NCBI GenBank assembly: GCA_963971425.1
Contig: OZ020519.1
Span: 20,295,397 to 20,359,396 of the forward strand
DNA length: 64,000 bases
Source: Bryoerythrophyllum caledonicum
Lineage: Eukaryota; Streptophyta; Bryopsida; Pottiales; Pottiaceae
Direction of reading: 5' to 3'
A model generated the notes under the pieces. The model saw only the letters and a list, made by a program, of their open reading frames with translations, searched no databases and was not told the origin of the DNA. The stretch's first letter is position 1, and every line of letters begins with the position of its first letter. The position numbers and the translations under genes are program-made. Positions 9,048-48,265 of this stretch are shown piece by piece.

Positions 9048-10517
9048 CTGACTTTCACCCTTGAAGTCAATGATAAAAACATTGTTATTGACCAGCAACG
9101 ACGTGATATGGAGGAGCTCCAATTTGCCCTACAAGCTAGTACAATGACCACAGAAGATCGGAATCCACGACGGGAGGAGGAAGTGCTTGTACACGTGTCA
9201 ACCCAAGACGATTCATTGTCGTTTGATGAGGCCCCTACCAACGCAGACAAAACTATGGTCAACAAAGAAGAGGGTGCGGGGGGTGACGGTGGCAAAGAGC
9301 TCGCTAAAGCGCTTGAAGAGAATTCAAGACTACAAAGTTGCTTGGATGTGTTGGTAGAACATTACTATCAATGGAAGTTGGCCTACGTCTTCACGGTCGA
9401 TTGGTCCCGACAATTGGTTGCGGAATTCCAAAAAATCGACAACAACTATATCGAAAACAACCAGGAGAGGGTGTTTGGTTTGACATCGTAGGCCCTTGTA
9501 GATGATCTTTTCAAGATGGATGAAATGGCGATGGTGAAAACCGCCGGTGGGCAAACAACCATCGATTGGTCCCATTACAAATGGGATTTTAAAAAGGAAT
9601 TTTCATCCACCCTCGATCATCGGGGCAACCCGATGTTATTGTAGCCACAACCTTCGAGCTTCGTATCCGATGGTACGACTTGCTCAATTTATCTAAACCC
9701 ATTTGGTCCAGAAGGTGGGATGCATCTAGGCACTTGTGAGCACTTGTACCATCCATTTTGTTTGATTAGCTTGATGGTTGTACGCCGGCGGTGCTCATTG
9801 TGCAAGGTCCCTTTTCACGAGCGATTGTACAAACTTTTTGGATTAGTTCCATACATGCCTCCGCATTGGGAGTTCAATGTGACGAACGCCCCTAATCAAT
9901 CACAAATGTGGGGAAAGGATTTGATGTGGAGCTGGAAACTGAAGATGCACTCGTTGGATAAGACGCACCTCTCAAACGAGTGGGGTTGGAAACGGGATTC
10001 GGAGCAGATTGTTCGGGTGTGCAAGAATTTGATCCCGTTGAAGGACAAATACGGTCAAGGAAAATGAAATTTCTTCTACCAATGATTTAACGGGCATTGG
10101 GACGAGAATGGGGAGCAATTTCGATTCGGACCTCATCCACAGCAATGGTTGTGGGCCGTTGACGGAGTTCGCATCACTGACGACAATGGGGATCGCATTT
10201 CTCACGACGTTGACCAACCGGACCCGCAAGAACTAAGACAATTATCGGAATTAGAGTGGAAAGAAATTTTCCGAAATAACGGAATGGACTTCTTGCTCGA
10301 TGTGCACAGTCTAGGGACACGGCAAGCACTCGATCAGCTCATGCAATCCCAAATCCTAAGGGCCGTGTTGGATGAATATGGACCAGCGAGGAGAACACGA
10401 TCGGCATCTCGTAGACTTGTATTGGGCTCAGATGAAGACCTCCATATGCACGTAGGGGCACAGGACAACGAGGCAGGGGCGAGTGGCACTACTAATAGCC
10501 CGATGAATATTGACTAG
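9048..10517 (+). pseudogene. RH-family RING-H2 protein, C-terminal two thirds (copy B)
   Basis: One frame runs from CTG at 9048 (just after a TAG that could be an acceptor CCCTAG) to TAG at 10515-10517. It is broken by four in-frame stops at 9489 (TAG), 9642 (TAG), 10065 (TGA) and 10083 (TGA), with no indel. The first part is a coiled coil (KELAKALEENSRLQSCLD). The finger region (about 9670-9815) keeps PFGPEG, GTCEHLYHPFC and RCSLCKVPFH, but the second Cys of the first CxxC is Tyr and the internal Cys is Gly, so zinc binding is likely lost. The C-terminal part (after 10149) is charged, with a TRSASRR motif. Copies D and E show the intact form. The N-terminal domain is missing here; an unrelated partial copy of it (C) lies downstream. 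Confidence 0.75.
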
Positions 10518-32237: not shown

Positions 32238-34329
32238 ATGCATAGTGGAGGTCGAGTTGTTAGTTCAGCGAAGAAGCCGAAGAGGAACCCTGCGGATTTG
32301 GAGCTTGAAGTATATCAAAATCGTGATGTTCTAGGGGAACCAGGATGGGAAAGTGTTTGCGAGCCATGGACTGCCACAAATGCTATGGACTATATTAAGT
32401 TCGCGCATCTTGATAGATGGTGGCCGGAAGAGCTCCACAAGAAACATTGTTCAGCAAAGGCTGTAACGTACCGCGACATCAAAGACGTGGATGTGAAGTG
32501 GAGGTTCCTTGAGATTCTATGTGCAATTTCCAACTTGAAGCGATGGCCCAAAAACAATATCCCTAGAAGTATCGCGGCATTGATGTATGCGGAACATCAA
32601 TTGGGGAAGAGGGTGGATTGGTCAACGCTACACAAACCTTATTGTGGTGGGAAGATTCTTGGACACCCCCTTTCTGCAAAGAAATCGGTAGAGATTCCAA
32701 GAAAATTCGTTCTTGCATGGTTCCGCAATAACCCAAGCTTGGTTGACGACCCTGATGAATCATTGTCAGTGGACTGAGAAGCATCTCCTAAACAAAAGAG
32801 GAAAGTAGTTAAGAGGATAAAAGTAGTGGATGCCATTGAACAATCATTGCGCGAGCCCGAAGTCACAGATGCGAGGCAGTTGGGCATCCATATGAGTAAT
32901 GAAATTAACGTGGAGTCAATGCCATCCCCATTATCTCTGGAGGTGACCAATGCGGATCAAAACGAAGCCATTCAGATATCAACAACATGCATGCCGCATG
33001 GTACTGTAAGTGACCATGGGGGGTTTGAAAATTATCAAGTTGAAATTGGAGGCTTGAAAAAGGAACTAGAAGAAGTCAAAGCACAACATATTACAAACAA
33101 GGCGACATGTGCAAATTTCCAATGTGAGGTGGATGAATTAAAGGCAATTAGTGCAAACGACAAATCGAAGATAAATAAATTGACAGCCTTAGTTTTAGAA
33201 ACCATTGCCGAGCGGGAAGAGATGATGCTTACAACGGTGTTTGCGGTGGCACGAGCACGGCAGTATGAGGCGGAATTCAAGAGCATTGTTGCCGAATGGA
33301 CGTTGGAAAATAAATTGAGGACCCTCTTGCTCACATCGTGGCCTCTAGAGGAAACTATGTATTTGAAAAGTTGGGACAACAAGGAACCGTCGATACAAAA
33401 GAATAACAATAGCATTGATTGGAAGCACGTCAAAGAAGACGATCATCATTGGAACATCGAGGATGTGCATGACTATCCGCTAGATATGATGGGGAAGCCG
33501 TTGTGGCTAAAACCACATCCAATGACATCCGACGGATCGTCATGTCCTATTTGCGGAAATGCTTGGGGCCCAGAAGGGTGTTTTACGATTGGATCATGTG
33601 GCCATTCATTCCATCCACAATGTCTAATCAAGAGTATGATTCGCTCATGTATGTGCTGTATCTGTAGAGCGCCATTACATCCACGTTTGTATCTGCAATT
33701 TGGCATCCGGGATTTCATGCCTAACCATTGGGTGTATCGCCAAGATGATTATGATTTTGAACTTGGCGACTTCAATGGCCACCCTGTTGAGTGGAGCTAG
33801 GGACACAATATATCAAAGGCAGAGGTGTGGCATAAGTTTGGGGGGGGGGGGAACTTCTAAGATGATGCAGAGAAACTAATTCAAGCTGCGAACGAGATGT
33901 ATCCTGACAACCCGCTTGGGTACGGCATGAAGATGTTTTTTTTATCAAACTAAGGAATGGCATTGGAATCCTCAGAGGAAGGAGTTGGTGCACGGTTTAG
34001 GACCAAAACCATATTACAACTCATCTGGTGAGCGAGCGGTAGAGACCCTGGAACTACGCAGATCCTATCGTGGAACTCCTCTAGCTGTAAACACCGGTAC
34101 AGAAGACTTGTTTTGGGAAGAACGCTACCATCGTAAACGACTACTGGTGGCGGCGCTCGATGCCATATTGGATGAAGTTGCCCCGGAGGTAAAGGAATGG
34201 CTCAATGGTGGGGACATACCTCGATATTCGGAAATGGTGATTCGCCATGAACGCCATGGATATGGGACACGGAGTAATGTTTGTGCACAAGGCGGTGACT
34301 CCTCCAACCCTTCAAGACAGCAACAATAA
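32238..34329 (+). pseudogene. RH-family protein, most complete copy (copy E): VDW domain, coiled coil, RING-H2
   Basis: Frame from ATG 32238 (MHSGGRVVSSAKK). Residues 1-180: N-terminal domain with GWESVCEPW and LGKRVDWSTL, then TGA at 32775 (SVD*EAS), after which the same frame continues with a basic patch (KQKRKVVKRIKV). A coiled coil follows (about 33040-33330; LKKELEEVKAQ), then TLENKLRTLLLTSWP and the RING-H2 finger at 33542-33667: CPIC, WGPEGC, GSCGHSFHPQC and CICRAP, with spacing C-x2-C-x13-C-x-H-x2-H-x2-C-x-C-x2-C. Next comes a conserved YLQFGIRDFMPNHWVYRQ block. A TAG at 33798, a G10 run at 33839-33848 and a T8 run near 33937 then break the frame. The C-terminal part (to TAA 34329) contains YYNSSGE and ALDAILDEVAPEVKEWL, matching copy D. 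RING-H2 proteins are usually E3 ubiquitin ligases; that role is inferred. Confidence 0.8.
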
Positions 34330-40624: not shown

Positions 40625-40989
40625 CTATTTGTCTTTAGTGGAAAATTGCATTTCATTCCTAGTCAAAAAATTTGCACATTGCCACACATTGTCTGGCAAT
40701 CCATGAGAAGCATGAGGCACTTCCATTCCCCGTCTCTGTAGGTTTCTCTCACGTTCTAGCCAAGCCTTGACTTCTAGGGAAATATCGTTTAATATAACGT
40801 CTAGTGCCGCGGCCCTCAGTTGTGCGTGATGGTATGTTCTTTCTTCAAGCAGATCCTCTTCTGCACTTCGAGCTTCTTGGATATCTTGCACACGCCGATA
40901 TAATCGGTTGAATCTTGCATTGGTGAGCGCCTCTACTCCCGTAGAGTTGTAATGCACTCCGTTTCCCATTCCCGGCAATAACGTCATTC
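40625..40989 (-). pseudogene. RH copy D, C-terminal part (beyond the transposon)
   Basis: Minus-strand frame from the target-duplication ATG-ACG at 40987-40982 onward: MTLLPGMGNG, YNSTGVEALT, EEDLLEERTYHHAQ, LDVILNDISLEVKAWLE. It aligns with 33985-34290 of copy E. It continues exactly, with one copy of the 8-bp duplication, from 47533 on the other side of the DNA transposon. Confidence 0.85.
40982..40989. repeat. Target-site duplication, left copy (CGTCATTC)
   Basis: CGTCATTC immediately left of the transposon end. The identical octamer lies at 47533-47540. Confidence 0.95.
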
Positions 40990-41004
40990 CCCGGGGGGGT
41001 CACT

Positions 41005-41604
41005 TAGAAAATTTTATTAAACAACGTGCGGCATAATATAGGGTGGTATTAAATCACGGTGTCCAAAAATTAGAAAAATCTTTGAGGTAATAAAGGGTAT
41101 TCAAATCGCTTCACACTCAATTATAAGTAATATATAGAGGTAAATAATGGGTCATATTCTTTTATTTTTTATCTAAAATACCCTGTAGGAAAAAGATATG
41201 AATAAAGTTTTTTTTATAGATTCAATTATTACTCTGAAAATGGTGCTTAGGATGGATGGAAACGGGTTGGTATGATGGATGAATATGCGGGTTGGGGCTG
41301 GGATGGATGAAAAAGGAGATAACGGCCGAGTGGGGTCTTCTCTCTCACCTTCGCGTGAACAACAAGCTCTGTGTTTGTGGCCGGGTTTTTCGAGTTGTGT
41401 TTCTGAGTGGCTGCAGTTTTAGAGCGTTCTTTTCATTTTCAAATCTTCTCGTGCTCTTGCTCCGTGCTCTCGTGCTCTTGCTCCGTTAGGGTGCATGCAT
41501 AGATTTGGGGTTTCTGCAGAGAAAAGGTTTAGAGTAATCGCTTTGCTGTGGTGAAGTTGCTGTGCCGTGGGTTCTCCTTCACTTAGGGTTTTTTGCTGAG
41601 GTTC
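41005..41604 (+). promoter_or_regulatory. Leader of the transposon transposase
   Basis: Noncoding left arm of the DNA transposon. AT-rich to about 41270, then a transition to mixed sequence with a near-perfect local duplication of TCTCGTGCTCTTGCTCCGT at 41448-41485. The promoter and leader presumably lie here; no TATA element can be singled out. Confidence 0.5.
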
Positions 41605-44600
41605 ATGGCATCTCCGAGAGAGAGGCACGTGAAGTTTTGGACTCGGGAGCACGAGGATGCGGACGCTGAATACTTCGGGAAGGTGAAAGTTGGGGACGGT
41701 TTATCGTATGCCTCGTTACGGGAGAGGTTAGAGGCCGTGAAGGTTTTGGACTAGCCTTTCGAGTTCTGGGATGTTGAAGAGAGTTGCAGAATCCGAAAGA
41801 AGATCGAAGCTCTGAACGACATCCTCGAGGAGGTGCATGTGATACTTGTAGGCGATGGCAACTCTGTTCCAGCCAAGCGTCGGAGGTTGGAGGGTGAAAC
41901 GCGTGGCGAATTCGAGCCCGCAGTCGACTCAGATTGCGGTCTTGTAGACCCTGAATCGCAGATTGAAGCATCCGCCGAGCCTCTGGGATCTTCTAGGGTT
42001 AGCTGCAAAGGTAACGACAGCGAAGAGAATGAGGTAAGTTGGAAATCTACTGTAATCCCTAAAGAAATCAGGGATCGATACATAAGGGCGGCTGAAAGAT
42101 TGAGGAAGGATTTGAGGGATGTTTCACTTGAGGACAACAAATGGGTGCTGAAATCGTGGGATCAAGATGGTATGGGGATTGTCAAAGTATTTTGCTTGGA
42201 ATGCCGTAAAGAATGCGGTGGTGATAGCGGAAGTCATAGCAATACTACTGTTGCTAATCTGTTTTCAAATTTTAAGTCCAGTCATCTGACTAGTACCCAA
42301 CATATTAAGAACTGGTGTCGGAAGCACAATGTGAATTTCCTTGACCACCCCGCATCAGTCCCAACAAAGGGGAAAGCTGTTCCATTGTCTCCGAGCAGAC
42401 ACAAGGAGTTGATCAAGGAGGGGATTTCCATAATGGAGGAGGTGAATGAGGGACTTGATTTTGGTGTGCTGCCATTTTCTGTCGTGGCGAACGTTGAAAC
42501 ACCGAACCCTAAGAGTTTCTGGTTCAAGGTTAAGTGTCCCTACTGCAAAGACTTGCTAAATCTCTGTCCTCCAAAGAGGAATTTGGAGGCGAATTTGCGC
42601 AATCACATCCGAGGTTCGAAGCACATGATGGCGGTTGAAGAAGCTCAGAACCAGCTCTCAAAGTCGGTTGGATTGCTTTCGGGGAGGCGTGGCAGGCCAG
42701 GTCGGTCATTTACCACAAGTGCTCACTCGAACCAACCTGATTTGCATTCGTGGTTCAGTAACGGGAATTCAGGGGACAGCAGAGGAGGTAAGTATTTCAC
42801 CGAGGCCTTAGATGCGAATGTTGTGAAGGGTTTCATGTGTTGGGGATTTCGGGCGTCTTTTTCGAATTACAACCGTGTTCCGAATGTTGTAGGAGGCTTG
42901 TTAGCGGATCAGATGTGTGGTGCTGCCTGGTTTAGTGAGCCGCACCTTTCTGCGTCTGTGATTGTCAATGGGCAGGTAGTAAACATTAATGGCGCCTTTA
43001 GGCATAGTGAATGTGTTAGGTTTTGTGCTGATGGGAAAGGCTTTCGGGACCTCACATGCTCAATGTGCGCTTAGATACCACAAGAAAATGATTTCAAGAA
43101 GAGGGTGTTCAGAGAGGACCGCTCAATCGACAAAAGGGGCAGTAGGACTACTTCCGGTGGTAGGAGAGTTGGGTACTTGACAGTTGCCGAGCTTGTTCGT
43201 CATGGCAGGGACATGAAGAAGAAGTTGAGGTTAGAAAAACTAAACCATTGGTCTACTAGAGCTAGGATAGTGCAGTTGAAGGTGAAACGGCCTACTCTTA
43301 AAGAGATGGCTAAACAGTCCTCTTCTGAGCATAACTTGTTAAAGTTTTGCAATAATATTCTGAATGCTCACAGAACTGGTGCATTCGGAGGTAGAGCTGC
43401 GTTATGGGACTTTATCCAAGATGTTGCACAGAACCTGAATCGTGACAATAGAGGGAATCGGTATAGCGACAACACTAAATCTTTCGCTCAGGTTATGAAG
43501 GTATACGGAGGTAACAGAATGTGTGACGTTTTTAGTTTGAATTATTGTGGACCAAATTATAGTACTATCAAGCAGGATCATGCTAAGGGTGTACAGTTCA
43601 TTCCCGGTGAGCATTCTGAAATCTTTGCGGCTGTTGCAGAGATTTACAGAAACTCTAAAGCAGCGCATGGTATTACCGGACCTGTTCCTGTGATACTAGC
43701 TGAGGACGAGACGAAGGTGAGAGGTCGAGTTGCGTATGAGCCCAAGTGAGACACACTAGCAGGTTTTTGTGGTCCAAGTGATGATCATCAGTGTGTTTCA
43801 AGTTTTAAGCCTTTGGTGGGATCGGGAGAAGAAGGATACAACAACATTCTTGACTCGTGTAGAACTAACAAAGTAGGGGGATTTGCTCGAGTTATTGTTG
43901 TGAATCCCATGCATGAAAGATTACCTCGTCTGGTCTTGGTTGCATGCTGCACTTGTAACTGCTTTGATTCAAGTTGGATAAGGAGGCAATGGGATGTTAT
44001 AGATGGATTGTGGGAAAAAGAATGCTTGAGTGCTGTGGGTCCTATTGTGGGTCACTCAAGTGATGGTGATTCACGTAGAAGGCAGTTAATGTTACAAGAT
44101 TACCGCAGTACTGTAGGACCCCGTTTGTCGGTTAACTGGGAGGGTTGGAATCTAACATCTGCTGTTGATGAACTTGGAAATGCTCGCAGCCTACATGACC
44201 AAGATTCCATTCATAACAGAAAAAAGCTAATCAACCCTCTTCTTTCAACGGTGCGTGTTCTGCAGCTAGGTGGGGATGTCTGTACACATGAACACTTGGG
44301 ATTAGTATATAATCGTTTTACCGCTGACCAGCATGGATTGAAGCAGGAGGATGTTGATCATAAGGATAGAAAGAATTGGGCCTCAGCCCAAAGAATATGT
44401 CAGCAAAAGGTAAGAACGTGCTTGAGACTCTTACGTGAGTCCCCGGATGTTAACAGGGAACGCACTCTAGGTACTGAGATGTATCTGGAGATTTGTGCAG
44501 AGTACATTGATATTTTTTGTTCACAGACTGTAGATTTGCGAGGTAGAATTGTGCTGGCATCAAAGGTAAGTTTCTTCTTTCGCTTGTGGAAGTTATGGCT

Positions 44601-46098
44601 GAAACACGGAGATCACTTTGTCCTTGGAAATTCTAGGCATATGGTAGAAGCTCAGAATTTTGTGAGTCAACAGTGCTTCATAGATATTCAACTATCTAGT
44701 AGCTTTGTTGTGCTACTAATCTGTCATTTTAGGGATCGTTATGCACACCTCCCTGTACCATTACACCTGACAGGTAGTGACTCCTGCGAGATTTTCTTCT
44801 CAAAGATCGGTGGAATGAATGGTCAAGAGCGGGCGTACGATTTTCACGAACTTGTCAACACTGCCAACACTCTGAACCAGTTGTCGGCGATCGAGTACGG
44901 GGAGAACGGACTGAAATTCAACAAAGTCTACAATAAGATGGAGAATCTCTGGGCAAAGCTACACCCAGTAATGGAAGGAGAAGTGCAGAGCAATTTAAGT
45001 GATTACAGCAAGATACCTTCAAATGTCGAAGTGGTGGAAGCGCTCCAGGAAGGCTTTGTAGAAGCACAGCGGATGTTCAGAGGGCTAAACATGGCTCCAA
45101 CTGTGCATGCCGCCGCTTCCAGAAAGGTATGGTTCAATAAACCATGGCTGATCAAGAAGGTGGACCCCAAATTCATGGCGTACACTCCCCCAGCAAGGCT
45201 TGTGCGTGGTGAAGACGGCGACAGTGAAGTGTTGAGAGAGGCCGCTGCTGCGTCTTCCTCGAATGCTGAAGGTACCATCGCTCCTTCTACGCTGAATCAG
45301 GACGTTGAAGATGAGATCCTTGACGATGGTTTGGATCCTCAAGTTGTCGTGGAGGACGAGACTCGGGATTCCATTTCCAACGTCTTGAGTGCACATGAGC
45401 CGCAGGTGTCCAGCCGTGTAGCACCGTCAAAAGTGCTCCCGGGCGTTGAATATGATGGTCATGTCATTTTTAAATCTACTCTTGTTTCACAACTTAATGG
45501 TAACCCTTTCCTCTCTAAGGACCGTTTGACGAGAGTTAAGCACTCAATATACTTTAACAACCATGATGATTATATCATGGCTGCTGCTTCTTCTAGCACA
45601 TGTCTTCTAGGACTCGGATCGGATTGCGGGGTTTACTTTGTGTAGAGCGCCAGCACCAGGACCACGTCAATAGTGAAGGCTGTGGCCCGTAGGAAGAGAG
45701 GACGGCCAAATGTTGCCTCAAAGAGCGGGACCCCGACGAATTGCCGTGAAGGAGGTGCAGATCACGGAACCTGGTGGATCGGCCGCGTGTAGAAGATTCG
45801 TCGCAAAGTTGGGGCTCAACAGTGGGGTCTCTTGCGACACCCAGTCGACTTGCTTGACCGCACCGACATAATAGGGAGAAAGAATACTCGTCCATGCTCT
45901 CTTCAAGTTATGTTACAATACTTTAGTAAGGCTGCAGGTTTGAATAAGTTTAAGTACGATCACACTGATACTAACTGGATAGATGTTGATTCTATTATTA
46001 CTACAGTGACTCTTTCAATCAATCCAGTTACTTCCGTGTACACTTTGAACCATGAAGATGCTCATGCTCTAAACAAGATTGTTGCAGATCGAAGTTAA
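41605..46098 (+). pseudogene. P-element/THAP9-like transposase, five in-frame stops, no frameshift
   Basis: A frame of 1498 codons from ATG 41605 (MASPRERHVKFW) to TAA 46096, broken only by TAG 41752, TAG 43072, TGA 43747, TAG 45643 and TAG 45790. In order: two zinc-finger-like motifs (FCLECRKECGG..H..H near 42195, and CPYCKDLL..H.RGSKH near 42538); a basic helical region (KKKLRLEK); LAEDETKVRG (43699) as a possible first catalytic acidic residue; SSDGDSRRR (44056); QDSIHNRKKLINP (44200), resembling the D..H..K..RN motif of P/THAP9 enzymes; TGSDSCEIFFSKIGG (44770), resembling their E.FFS..R..GG end; an acidic linker; an AT-hook KRGRP; and a WWIGRV..WGLL..PVDLL module after the last stops. The superfamily assignment is an inference from these motifs and the 8-bp duplication. 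Confidence 0.75.
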
Positions 46099-46188
46099 GC
46101 TTGGGCAACAAGTTTGATTTGTGGGATGTAGCCAATTGATCGTTAAGCTTGTCTAAGTTGATCTAAGTTTGTCTAAATTTTTGCTTGG

Positions 46189-46656
46189 GTGTGCAAGAGG
46201 CCTGGTCTTAAATACCAGCAGCATGATTTGACTGCATTCCAGGAGATCAACGCTGCGTGCGTGGAGGGAATCCCCTACGGCCATCTAGTGCCAATCTTGG
46301 CAGCTCACTGTTTTGCGTCAAAGGATCCGTGGGAGCTCGACAACGGAGCTCGTGTTTGTAGACTGCGGACGATCCCCATGGCGTTGGCCACCTGTAGGGA
46401 ATGGCGCGGTATGCTGTCAACGCAGACGGAGTACGTAGCGCTCCGCTACGCCGAGTTCGAGGTTACTGGAGCCACACTCCCCCATTCCACCAGCGCTCAC
46501 GAATTTGTTGTGTCCAGGTTTGACTCCAACATCGCCCTACTCTCGAAGTCGTGGGAGCTTCACACACCCATGCCGCATCGCCTCCGCACCGCGCCCCTCC
46601 CGGAGTTGTCGAACGTAAAGCTGGACGCGCTCGTTTGCAAGTTGTCGGCAGGTTGA
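46189..46656 (+). CDS. Second ORF of the DNA transposon, unknown function
   Basis: An open frame of 155 codons, in the same frame as the transposase but separated from it by several stops. The first usable start is unclear: GTG at 46189, or an exon beginning after GTGCAAG. It is more GC-rich than its flanks. It reads YQQHDLTAFQEINAACVEG, PYGHLVPILAAHCFASKDP and LATCREWRGM. No family recognised. It may be a terminal exon of the transposase (GTTAAG at 46094 could be a weak donor) or an independent accessory protein. Confidence 0.5.
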   Translation: MCKRPGLKYQQHDLTAFQEINAACVEGIPYGHLVPILAAHCFASKDPWELDNGARVCRLRTIPMALATCREWRGMLSTQTEYVALRYAEFEVTGATLPHSTSAHEFVVSRFDSNIALLSKSWELHTPMPHRLRTAPLPELSNVKLDALVCKLSAG

Positions 46657-47517
46657 TAGATTGAGGCGTTCGTGCCCCTAGGCGCAGATTGGAAGCGCAT
46701 GGAGCATGTGTGGGTGACCCCGTCCCTGCGTGGCTGACTCTCGTCACCGTAGGGATCCTTGCTGTTCCTTGTTTTTTCTCATTACCGGCCCAAGAGAACC
46801 TGTTTTTTTTTCCATTATTGTAGTATTTGTTTCAGCCCATGAGTATACTCTTCGTTTTCCACCGGATGTATAGACTAGTACAGGATTCAGCGCCCTGCGT
46901 GGAGGAACTCAACTTTGATTTTGAACTGTAAGGGAATTCTGTTTGTAAATACACTCCCTAATGCATATACACTTCTCTGGGATCGTTTTTAGTCGTCTTC
47001 CTTGCATGTTGAGGTATGTTTGAGGAAGAGTACTCTTGTTCGTCATGCCTAAAGCCAGCTTTTGCTTCCTTGTATTTGATCCTTCCTGAAATGGAAATGG
47101 AAAGGAGATTCATGGTCCTTAATTTGTTTTCAGAAGTGGAGGTTAGTGTATTGGATTGTGATCGTGGTTGTTATATTCGTTCTTTTCATATGGCGTTGTT
47201 CGGTAGCTTTGTTGTGCAAATTTTGAGTTGAGCTTCGTCTGTAATACCTTGGTTTTTATCATGCTTCTATCATGAATGTGAAATTTTTGTCTTTAATCTT
47301 TAAAATTCACTTTTCTAATTTACTTTATTTTGTTACAATAAATTAAGGGACTTAAAAATTGGTCCTCTCCTGAAATTATAAGTAATGATATGGACCTTAA
47401 AAACAAGAACAATTAGAAAATTAGGTAATGGAAGGGTCCATTTAATTAGTCCAGCCCATCAAAATACCCCCTAAAATATTCCCCTTGGCCGCACGTGATA
47501 TACAACACCTCCTAAGG
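46657..47517 (+). other. Right noncoding arm of the DNA transposon
   Basis: No convincing ORF (a 71-codon frame at 47016-47231 has no domain). Becomes AT-rich toward the terminus, with the subterminal GCCGCACGT at 47488-47496. Confidence 0.6.
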
Positions 47518-47532
47518 AGTGACCCCCCCGGG

Positions 47533-47540
47533 CGTCATTC
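47533..47540. repeat. Target-site duplication, right copy (CGTCATTC)
   Basis: Identical to 40982-40989 and immediately right of the transposon terminus GTGACCCCCCCGGG. Confidence 0.95.
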
Positions 47541-48265
47541 TCTCTCGATCGTAATGCCACCCCAAAACGTTATAGAAAAACATCTTCAAGCCGAAATCCG
47601 GTGGTTGATTTGGATACATGCCCTCTGCCGCCTTCATTAAATTCTCTGGATCATTTAATGTGTCAACTTCTTCATTTGCGGCAATAAGTTGTGCGGATGA
47701 GACGTTGTATCTCCAATTCCACGTGACAGGTTGACCGACATCAGCGCCAATGTCAAAATCAGGGAAGTCTTCTTGGCGATACACCCAATGTCTTGGCATG
47801 AAATCCCGAAGGCCAAATTGAAGATACAAGCGGGCATGATAAGGCGATTTGCAAACCGTGCACGTACACTTTCGTATCATATCCTCGATTAGACATTGAG
47901 GGTGGTACGAATGACCACATGATCCAAGCGTGAAGCACCCTTCTGGGCCCCACGGATTTTGGCAAATGGCACACCGCGATCCATCATTGGTCTTCTCATC
48001 CACGTGGCCCCATATTTTATGGACATCTCCGATGCCACCAACCGTCTTGTGAATATTCCATCGGTGATCCTCTTCGACAATATGCCCCAAGTCAATGCTA
48101 CCGTTGGCCTTAAACACTGGTAGATCTATGTCATCCCAATTGCTTGGATACCTATCATCTAACGTTGGCCAAGACGTGAGTAACAATGTTCTCAGCCTAT
48201 TGTCAACCAAAATTCACCCTATTTAAATTCATCCAACCTAAATTGCATGGATGAAACCTGTGGAG
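47533..48265 (-). pseudogene. RH copy D, RING-H2 part, cut by the LTR on its 5' side
   Basis: Frame on the minus strand from about 48210 (VDNRLRTLLLTSWP) down to the transposon at 47533. The RING-H2 finger at 47973-47851 is intact: CAIC, WGPEGC, GSCGHSYHPQC, CTVCKSP. It is followed by YLQFGLRDFMPRHWVYRQ, nearly identical to copy E. Between 48211 and 48265 the same frame has four stops in about 20 codons, and then the Ty3 LTR begins. The coiled coil and N-terminal domain are therefore missing. The core finger residues are all kept, so this copy was functional until recently or decayed slowly. Confidence 0.85.

Follow-up and report, generated by a model that had tools for sequence, protein, structure and literature searches.

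P elements, the classic transposon of animals, do not appear in a recent list of land-plant DNA transposons; might plants nonetheless carry a lineage of their own? The question is raised by a locus in a 64,000-nucleotide stretch of the moss Bryoerythrophyllum caledonicum (contig OZ020519.1; hereafter the window), where a 6,543-bp element at 40990-47532 is bounded by perfect 15-bp terminal inverted repeats (TIRs) and a flanking 8-bp duplication. An earlier reading of the letters, which we call the original prediction, described it as a DNA transposon with a P/THAP9-like transposase. We consider it very probable that the element is a class II DNA transposon of the cut-and-paste type, from a plant lineage related to P; it would be a plant-lineage variant of the P superfamily, with a transposase core predicted to be P-like.

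Ends of the element

The boundaries are marked by the following features:

40982..40989, no strand: left target-site duplication CGTCATTC, exact flanking 8-mer
40990..41004, plus strand: left (5') TIR CCCGGGGGGGTCACT, exact match
41024..41032, plus strand: left copy of the subterminal inverted repeat ACGTGCGGC
47488..47496, minus strand: right copy of the subterminal inverted repeat ACGTGCGGC
47518..47532, minus strand: right (3') TIR CCCGGGGGGGTCACT, exact match
47533..47540, no strand: right target-site duplication CGTCATTC, exact flanking 8-mer
40628..48210, minus strand (parts about 40628-40989 and 47541-48210): RING-like host open reading frame (ORF) split by the insertion

The structural observations of the original prediction (the TIRs, the duplication, a symmetric subterminal repeat and a restored empty-site frame) are confirmed as a whole. 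With up to two mismatches allowed, the TIR is found twice in the window, whereas 100 shuffled versions contain it 0.10 times on average. Nowhere else in the window do perfect inverted ends of 11 bp occur as a pair enclosed by an exact 8-bp direct repeat (chance expectation for pairs with 15+8 matching bases, about 4e-5). The subterminal repeat occurs nowhere else in the window, and removing the element with one copy of the duplication joins the flanks into an uninterrupted 345-codon minus-strand frame encoding a RING-like protein.

Copies of the family in the moss genome

We searched the genome to which the window belongs (437,360,962 bases in 894 contigs) and found 16 exact TIR matches, against none for the reversed sequence; 15 of the 16 belong to the window element's family, judged by the neighbouring sequence of either end. 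The match at C2:23362205 was excluded as unrelated because its neighbouring sequence differs; this site (L006/L018, G000:C2:23362205) has an exact 15-base TIR in an unrelated neighbourhood, with CGGGACAGAGAG on both sides. The family occupies nine distinct insertion sites, with both ends located at eight, and an 8-bp duplication, itself a membership feature of P, flanks all eight: exact at seven (CGTCATTC, CAGTTTAG, TATTATTT, GGTCCATC, TTCCACGC, AGCTGGGC and CATCAACC) and with one mismatch at the other (GATGTGGT/GATGCGGT). The copies are:

Full-length copies: window, 6,543 bp; L012, 6,552 bp; L029, 6,549 bp; L014+L015, 9,932 bp
Derivative L013: 3,810 bp, partly sequence without match to the window element
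Derivative L024, L025, L026: 2,883 bp, three places with identical flanks
Derivative L027: 1,461 bp
Derivative L028: 614 bp
L030 (C9:26160577): one end only

The three 2,883-bp places (C2:14157457, C2:14197863 and C552:7289) share the same flanks and were therefore counted as one insertion; they are either a duplicated segment or an assembly duplicate. The longest copy, L014 with L015 (G000:C15:5914684-5924615), includes about 3.4 kb unmatched to the window's element.

Family copies run from 614 bp to 9.9 kb, with pairwise identities of 96.4-98.5% among those compared. Their TIRs vary little, with a longer G run at the right end of L029 and single changes at the right end of L025 and the left ends of L027 and L028; ACGTGCGGC recurs near the ends of other copies and carries a single change in three of them. 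An open transposase frame is absent from all four full-length copies. What the family shows directly is a set of defined ends with 8-bp duplications at several insertion sites, a coding frame in decay, and deletion derivatives that retain the ends, as internally deleted derivatives of the Drosophila P element also do. The original prediction had staked itself on other copies sharing these ends and duplications, and in the host genome it survived.

A wider clan with related ends

A search of the same genome with the transposase returned at least 35 matches, at least 32 of them long, including that of the window; these counts are lower bounds because no more than 32 of the 283 candidates received a score, and L012 is absent from the list. 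Internal stops are missing from five of the 32 long matches, three of them nearly full length, which suggests a lineage amenable to bench study. Setting aside the window, L029 and the C15 copy leaves 29 long matches; we read the flanks of eight of these, and four of the eight have related ends paired with an exact 8-bp duplication, three with a G run and one G-rich. Ends CACGGGGGGGGCACT/CCCGGGGGGAGCACT occur at two sites, with duplications TTCCTAGG and TTCTTGAA; CCCGGGGGGGGGGGCACT/CTTGGGGGGGGCACT enclose a copy with duplication AGTAATCT, accepted on its shared G-run-CACT motif; and CTAGGGGAGGACACTC/CCCGGAGAGGACACTC, G-rich rather than a G run, accompany TAGATAGA. Over 16 bases, the inverted-repeat score exceeds that of the reversed control for three of the four pairs (13 vs 8, 7 and 9). 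Given these paired ends in further copies, G-run-CACT ends appear to be widespread in the clan rather than a peculiarity of the window's family.

A transposase with a predicted P-like core

The coding region of the window copy contains the following features:

41605..46098, plus strand: transposase pseudogene, one intronless frame of 1498 codons including the terminal stop
42193..42303, plus strand: first C2H2-like zinc-finger motif (CxxC...HxxxxxH), strands and helices predicted
42535..42624, plus strand: second C2H2-like zinc-finger motif
43360..44904, plus strand: P-transposase-like core with helix-turn-helix (HTH), split RNase H and insertion domain, approximate, mapped from P0097 220-732
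43699..43713, plus strand: first catalytic Asp motif AEDET (beta-1)
44059..44082, plus strand: second catalytic Asp motif SDGDSRRR (end of beta-4)
44197..44226, plus strand: D(2)H motif DQDSIHNRKK, ahead of the insertion domain
44773..44790, plus strand: catalytic Glu motif GSDSCE (last RNase H helix)
45628..46062, plus strand: BAH-like C-terminal domain, approximate, mapped from P0097 963-1107, by fold only

The frame can be aligned with long relatives (1,423 to 1,530 residues), shows no frameshift against full-length ones, and has five internal stops, at 41752, 43072, 43747, 45643 and 45790. Because of these the window copy is a pseudogene, dead as it stands, which goes beyond what the original prediction stated. 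Introns are ruled out as an explanation of the stops, since a full-length relative, P0096, aligns across 41629-46083 in one frame that includes all five. Compared with the other copies, three of the stops are private, one is common to L012 and one to L029, and the four full-length copies lie at about equal distances from each other (pairwise identity 96.7-97.1%). The neutral estimate of 2.9% per site fits ordinary decay after insertion, so we do not claim that the window copy was mobilised when already broken. The predicted catalytic motifs are all present in its frame, and the Cys and His residues of the first zinc-finger motif are nearly invariant in the alignment of relatives.

The original prediction had proposed a structure-based search, which we ran with a structure predicted for a relative (57% identity to the window frame): the Drosophila P transposase came out far ahead of the other listed matches, scoring 25.7 against 8.6 for the hAT transposase Hermes. 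P-element Pfam models were found in some relatives, and the P-type HTH domain PF12017 scored above its cut-off in two of nine distant relatives, though not in the window ORFs. A D(2)H motif follows beta-5 (regex DQDxxHNxKK) in 42 of the 45 core-spanning sequences; because other superfamilies share the motif, it is not diagnostic of P. Its definition follows PMC8230255.

The same structural comparison bears on two other superfamilies. A hAT element would likewise have an 8-bp duplication and an RNase H fold with an insertion, but Hermes scores far below P, no hAT model appeared in Pfam scans at E up to 1 (up to 0.1 in one scan), and the combination of a C-terminal dimerisation domain with a hAT-type core was not found; we regard this assignment as extremely improbable. 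Membership of KDZ, the alternative named in the original prediction, is hardly more credible. Zisupton too makes 8-bp duplications, but the two described Kyakuja families have 7-bp duplications and CA..TG ends without TIRs (both according to PMC12730594), the fold points to P, and the proteins scanned gave no KDZ-named Pfam model, a judgement made without a KDZ structure or alignment. The KDZ alternative accordingly gained no support, and hAT and KDZ were both set aside on the fold ranking and the absent Pfam matches.

Several results weigh against a P assignment. For the window's transposase ORFs Pfam gave no P family and no convincing match of any other kind, and the P structure was missed when the PDB was searched with sequence profiles, so the link to P rests on the predicted fold and on distant relatives. 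A THAP domain is listed in none of the Pfam scans of window ORFs and relatives; strict P/THAP9 proteins carry one at the N terminus, where C2H2-like motifs stand here. The family's termini differ from those of the Drosophila P element and from zebrafish P ends. Within the clan, the AGTAATCT pair does no better than its reversed control (10 vs 10), because its two G runs differ in length, and the remaining four of the eight copies gave a single end-like site (two copies), an ambiguous result (one, 11 vs 10) or nothing (one). The absent THAP domain, the unusual G-run ends, the different N- and C-terminal domains and a similarity to P almost undetectable in sequence would also suit a separate superfamily with a P-like catalytic core and insertion domain, a sister of P and not a member. 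We rate this somewhat below an even chance, and it is compatible with a plant lineage related to P as worded above. The interpretation in the original prediction is thus partly supported: its P component stands on the predicted fold and the Pfam models in some relatives, and its THAP9 component does not, no THAP domain being listed.

Kinship to P, the reading we prefer, gains shape from the characterised systems. The predicted fold (HTH, split RNase H and insertion domain) and the order of the DDE and D(2)H residues resemble those of Drosophila P (DmTNP), which also has an 8-bp duplication and internal inverted repeats (PMC7776569). It differs in that the window family lacks a listed THAP domain and has instead two C2H2-like motifs and a further cysteine-rich region, a BAH-like C terminus, an intronless frame of about 1,500 codons and 15-bp G-run TIRs as against 31 bp. 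Zebrafish Pdre2/THAP9 is alike in its short TIR (13 bp), 12-bp subterminal inverted repeats, 8-bp duplication and internally deleted copies, and unlike in its THAP domain, its ends (5'-CATACCTGTCAAC) and its animal host (PMC10983969).

Relatives and distribution

Named relatives come from the liverworts Riccia sorocarpa and Calypogeia fissa and the fern Adiantum nelumboides, with a more distant one in the coral Desmophyllum pertusum; no relative was confirmed in the prokaryote and viral collections. In a tree of 45 core-spanning sequences, drawn from 137 proteins and the window frame with the coral protein left out, the window frame falls within a 19-row clade (support 100/100) that holds the tree's three named plant rows.

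A 2022 review gives Tc1-Mariner, hAT, Sola, MULE, PIF-Harbinger and CACTA as land-plant TIR superfamilies, and P is not among them (PMC9033089), which fits the original suggestion of a little-described plant lineage. Among the papers listed by our searches of the open-licence PMC literature, none turned up as an account of a plant P-like or BAH-bearing transposase; Repbase and subscription papers lay outside this scope and may contain entries for such families. Distant P homologues were reported from Amoebozoa and Chromalveolata in a 2014 survey (PMC3985635), and P was therefore already known to extend beyond animals, while THAP domains are restricted to animals according to a review (PMC7776569). 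A plant branch that combines a related core with G-run ends and with other domains for DNA binding and at the C terminus would separate the essentials of P transposition from animal additions.

The BAH-like tail and a possible mechanism

Among the best 50 structural matches listed, 13 cover residues 961-1114 and belong to proteins that we take to be BAH-containing, three plant H3K27me3 readers among them. In the alignment this region conserves aromatic residues (W/Y-I/L-G-R, W/Y-F/Y, and a W before I-D in most), candidates for a methyl-lysine aromatic cage. Two of the window copy's stops fall inside the domain. Ahead of it, plant-type relatives carry a motif like KSTLVxQLNxNPxLSKDRLTRV, which is looser in coral-type ones.

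Chromatin targeting by this tail is a guess. The chances seem to us evenly balanced that the domain is a mere structural resemblance with no chromatin role, although the 13 presumed BAH structures argue the other way. The marks on transposons differ between two bryophytes: about 40% of transposons carry H3K27me3 in the liverwort Marchantia, whereas those of the moss Physcomitrium are mostly marked by H3K9me2 (PMC10952607). A fuller scenario, which we think rather unlikely as a whole, would have an old, diversified P-like lineage of seedless plants, without THAP, whose zinc fingers and HTH bind the G-run ends and whose BAH domain reads a repressive mark and steers integration. If true, it would be the DNA-transposon counterpart of the chromodomain retrotransposons, and reading of H3K27me3 or H3K9me2 would direct new copies into already silenced chromatin. 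The parallel with chromoviruses, whose integrase likewise joins an integrating enzyme to a histone-mark reader (PMC12477314), is one of analogy only, since those are retrotransposons and use a chromodomain where a BAH-like domain stands here. Should the tail read chromatin, it would allow the idea of chromatin-guided integration to be tested directly for a DNA transposase.

Transposition might then proceed as follows. A transposase dimer, supplied by an autonomous relative, would bind the TIRs and the subterminal ACGTGCGGC through its N-terminal zinc fingers and HTH, and a coiled coil would keep the ends together. The DDE RNase H site would cleave with GTP bound in the insertion domain, and the ends would be joined to target strands 8 bp apart, the BAH-like tail perhaps biasing the landing site by reading a histone mark. 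Short derivatives would move in trans, through relatives with open frames.

Other features of the window

Between the transposase frame and the right end lies one further ORF:

46189..46656, plus strand: 155-aa ORF in a GC-rich stretch of the 3' region

The GC content is 0.56-0.61 here and 0.39-0.40 on either side; the ORF has no Pfam match at E up to 10 and is possibly a captured fragment. The interrupted host ORF matches RING Pfam models at E 3e-4 and weaker, every one below its cut-off. A diverged paralogue at 33303-34290 aligns with it in two pieces, the second of which crosses the junction at 34% identity, and a second, weaker paralogue lies at 9456-10103. The RING-like family is thus multicopy in the window (47541-48210, 33303-34290 and 9456-10103), and the second and third of these carry stops.
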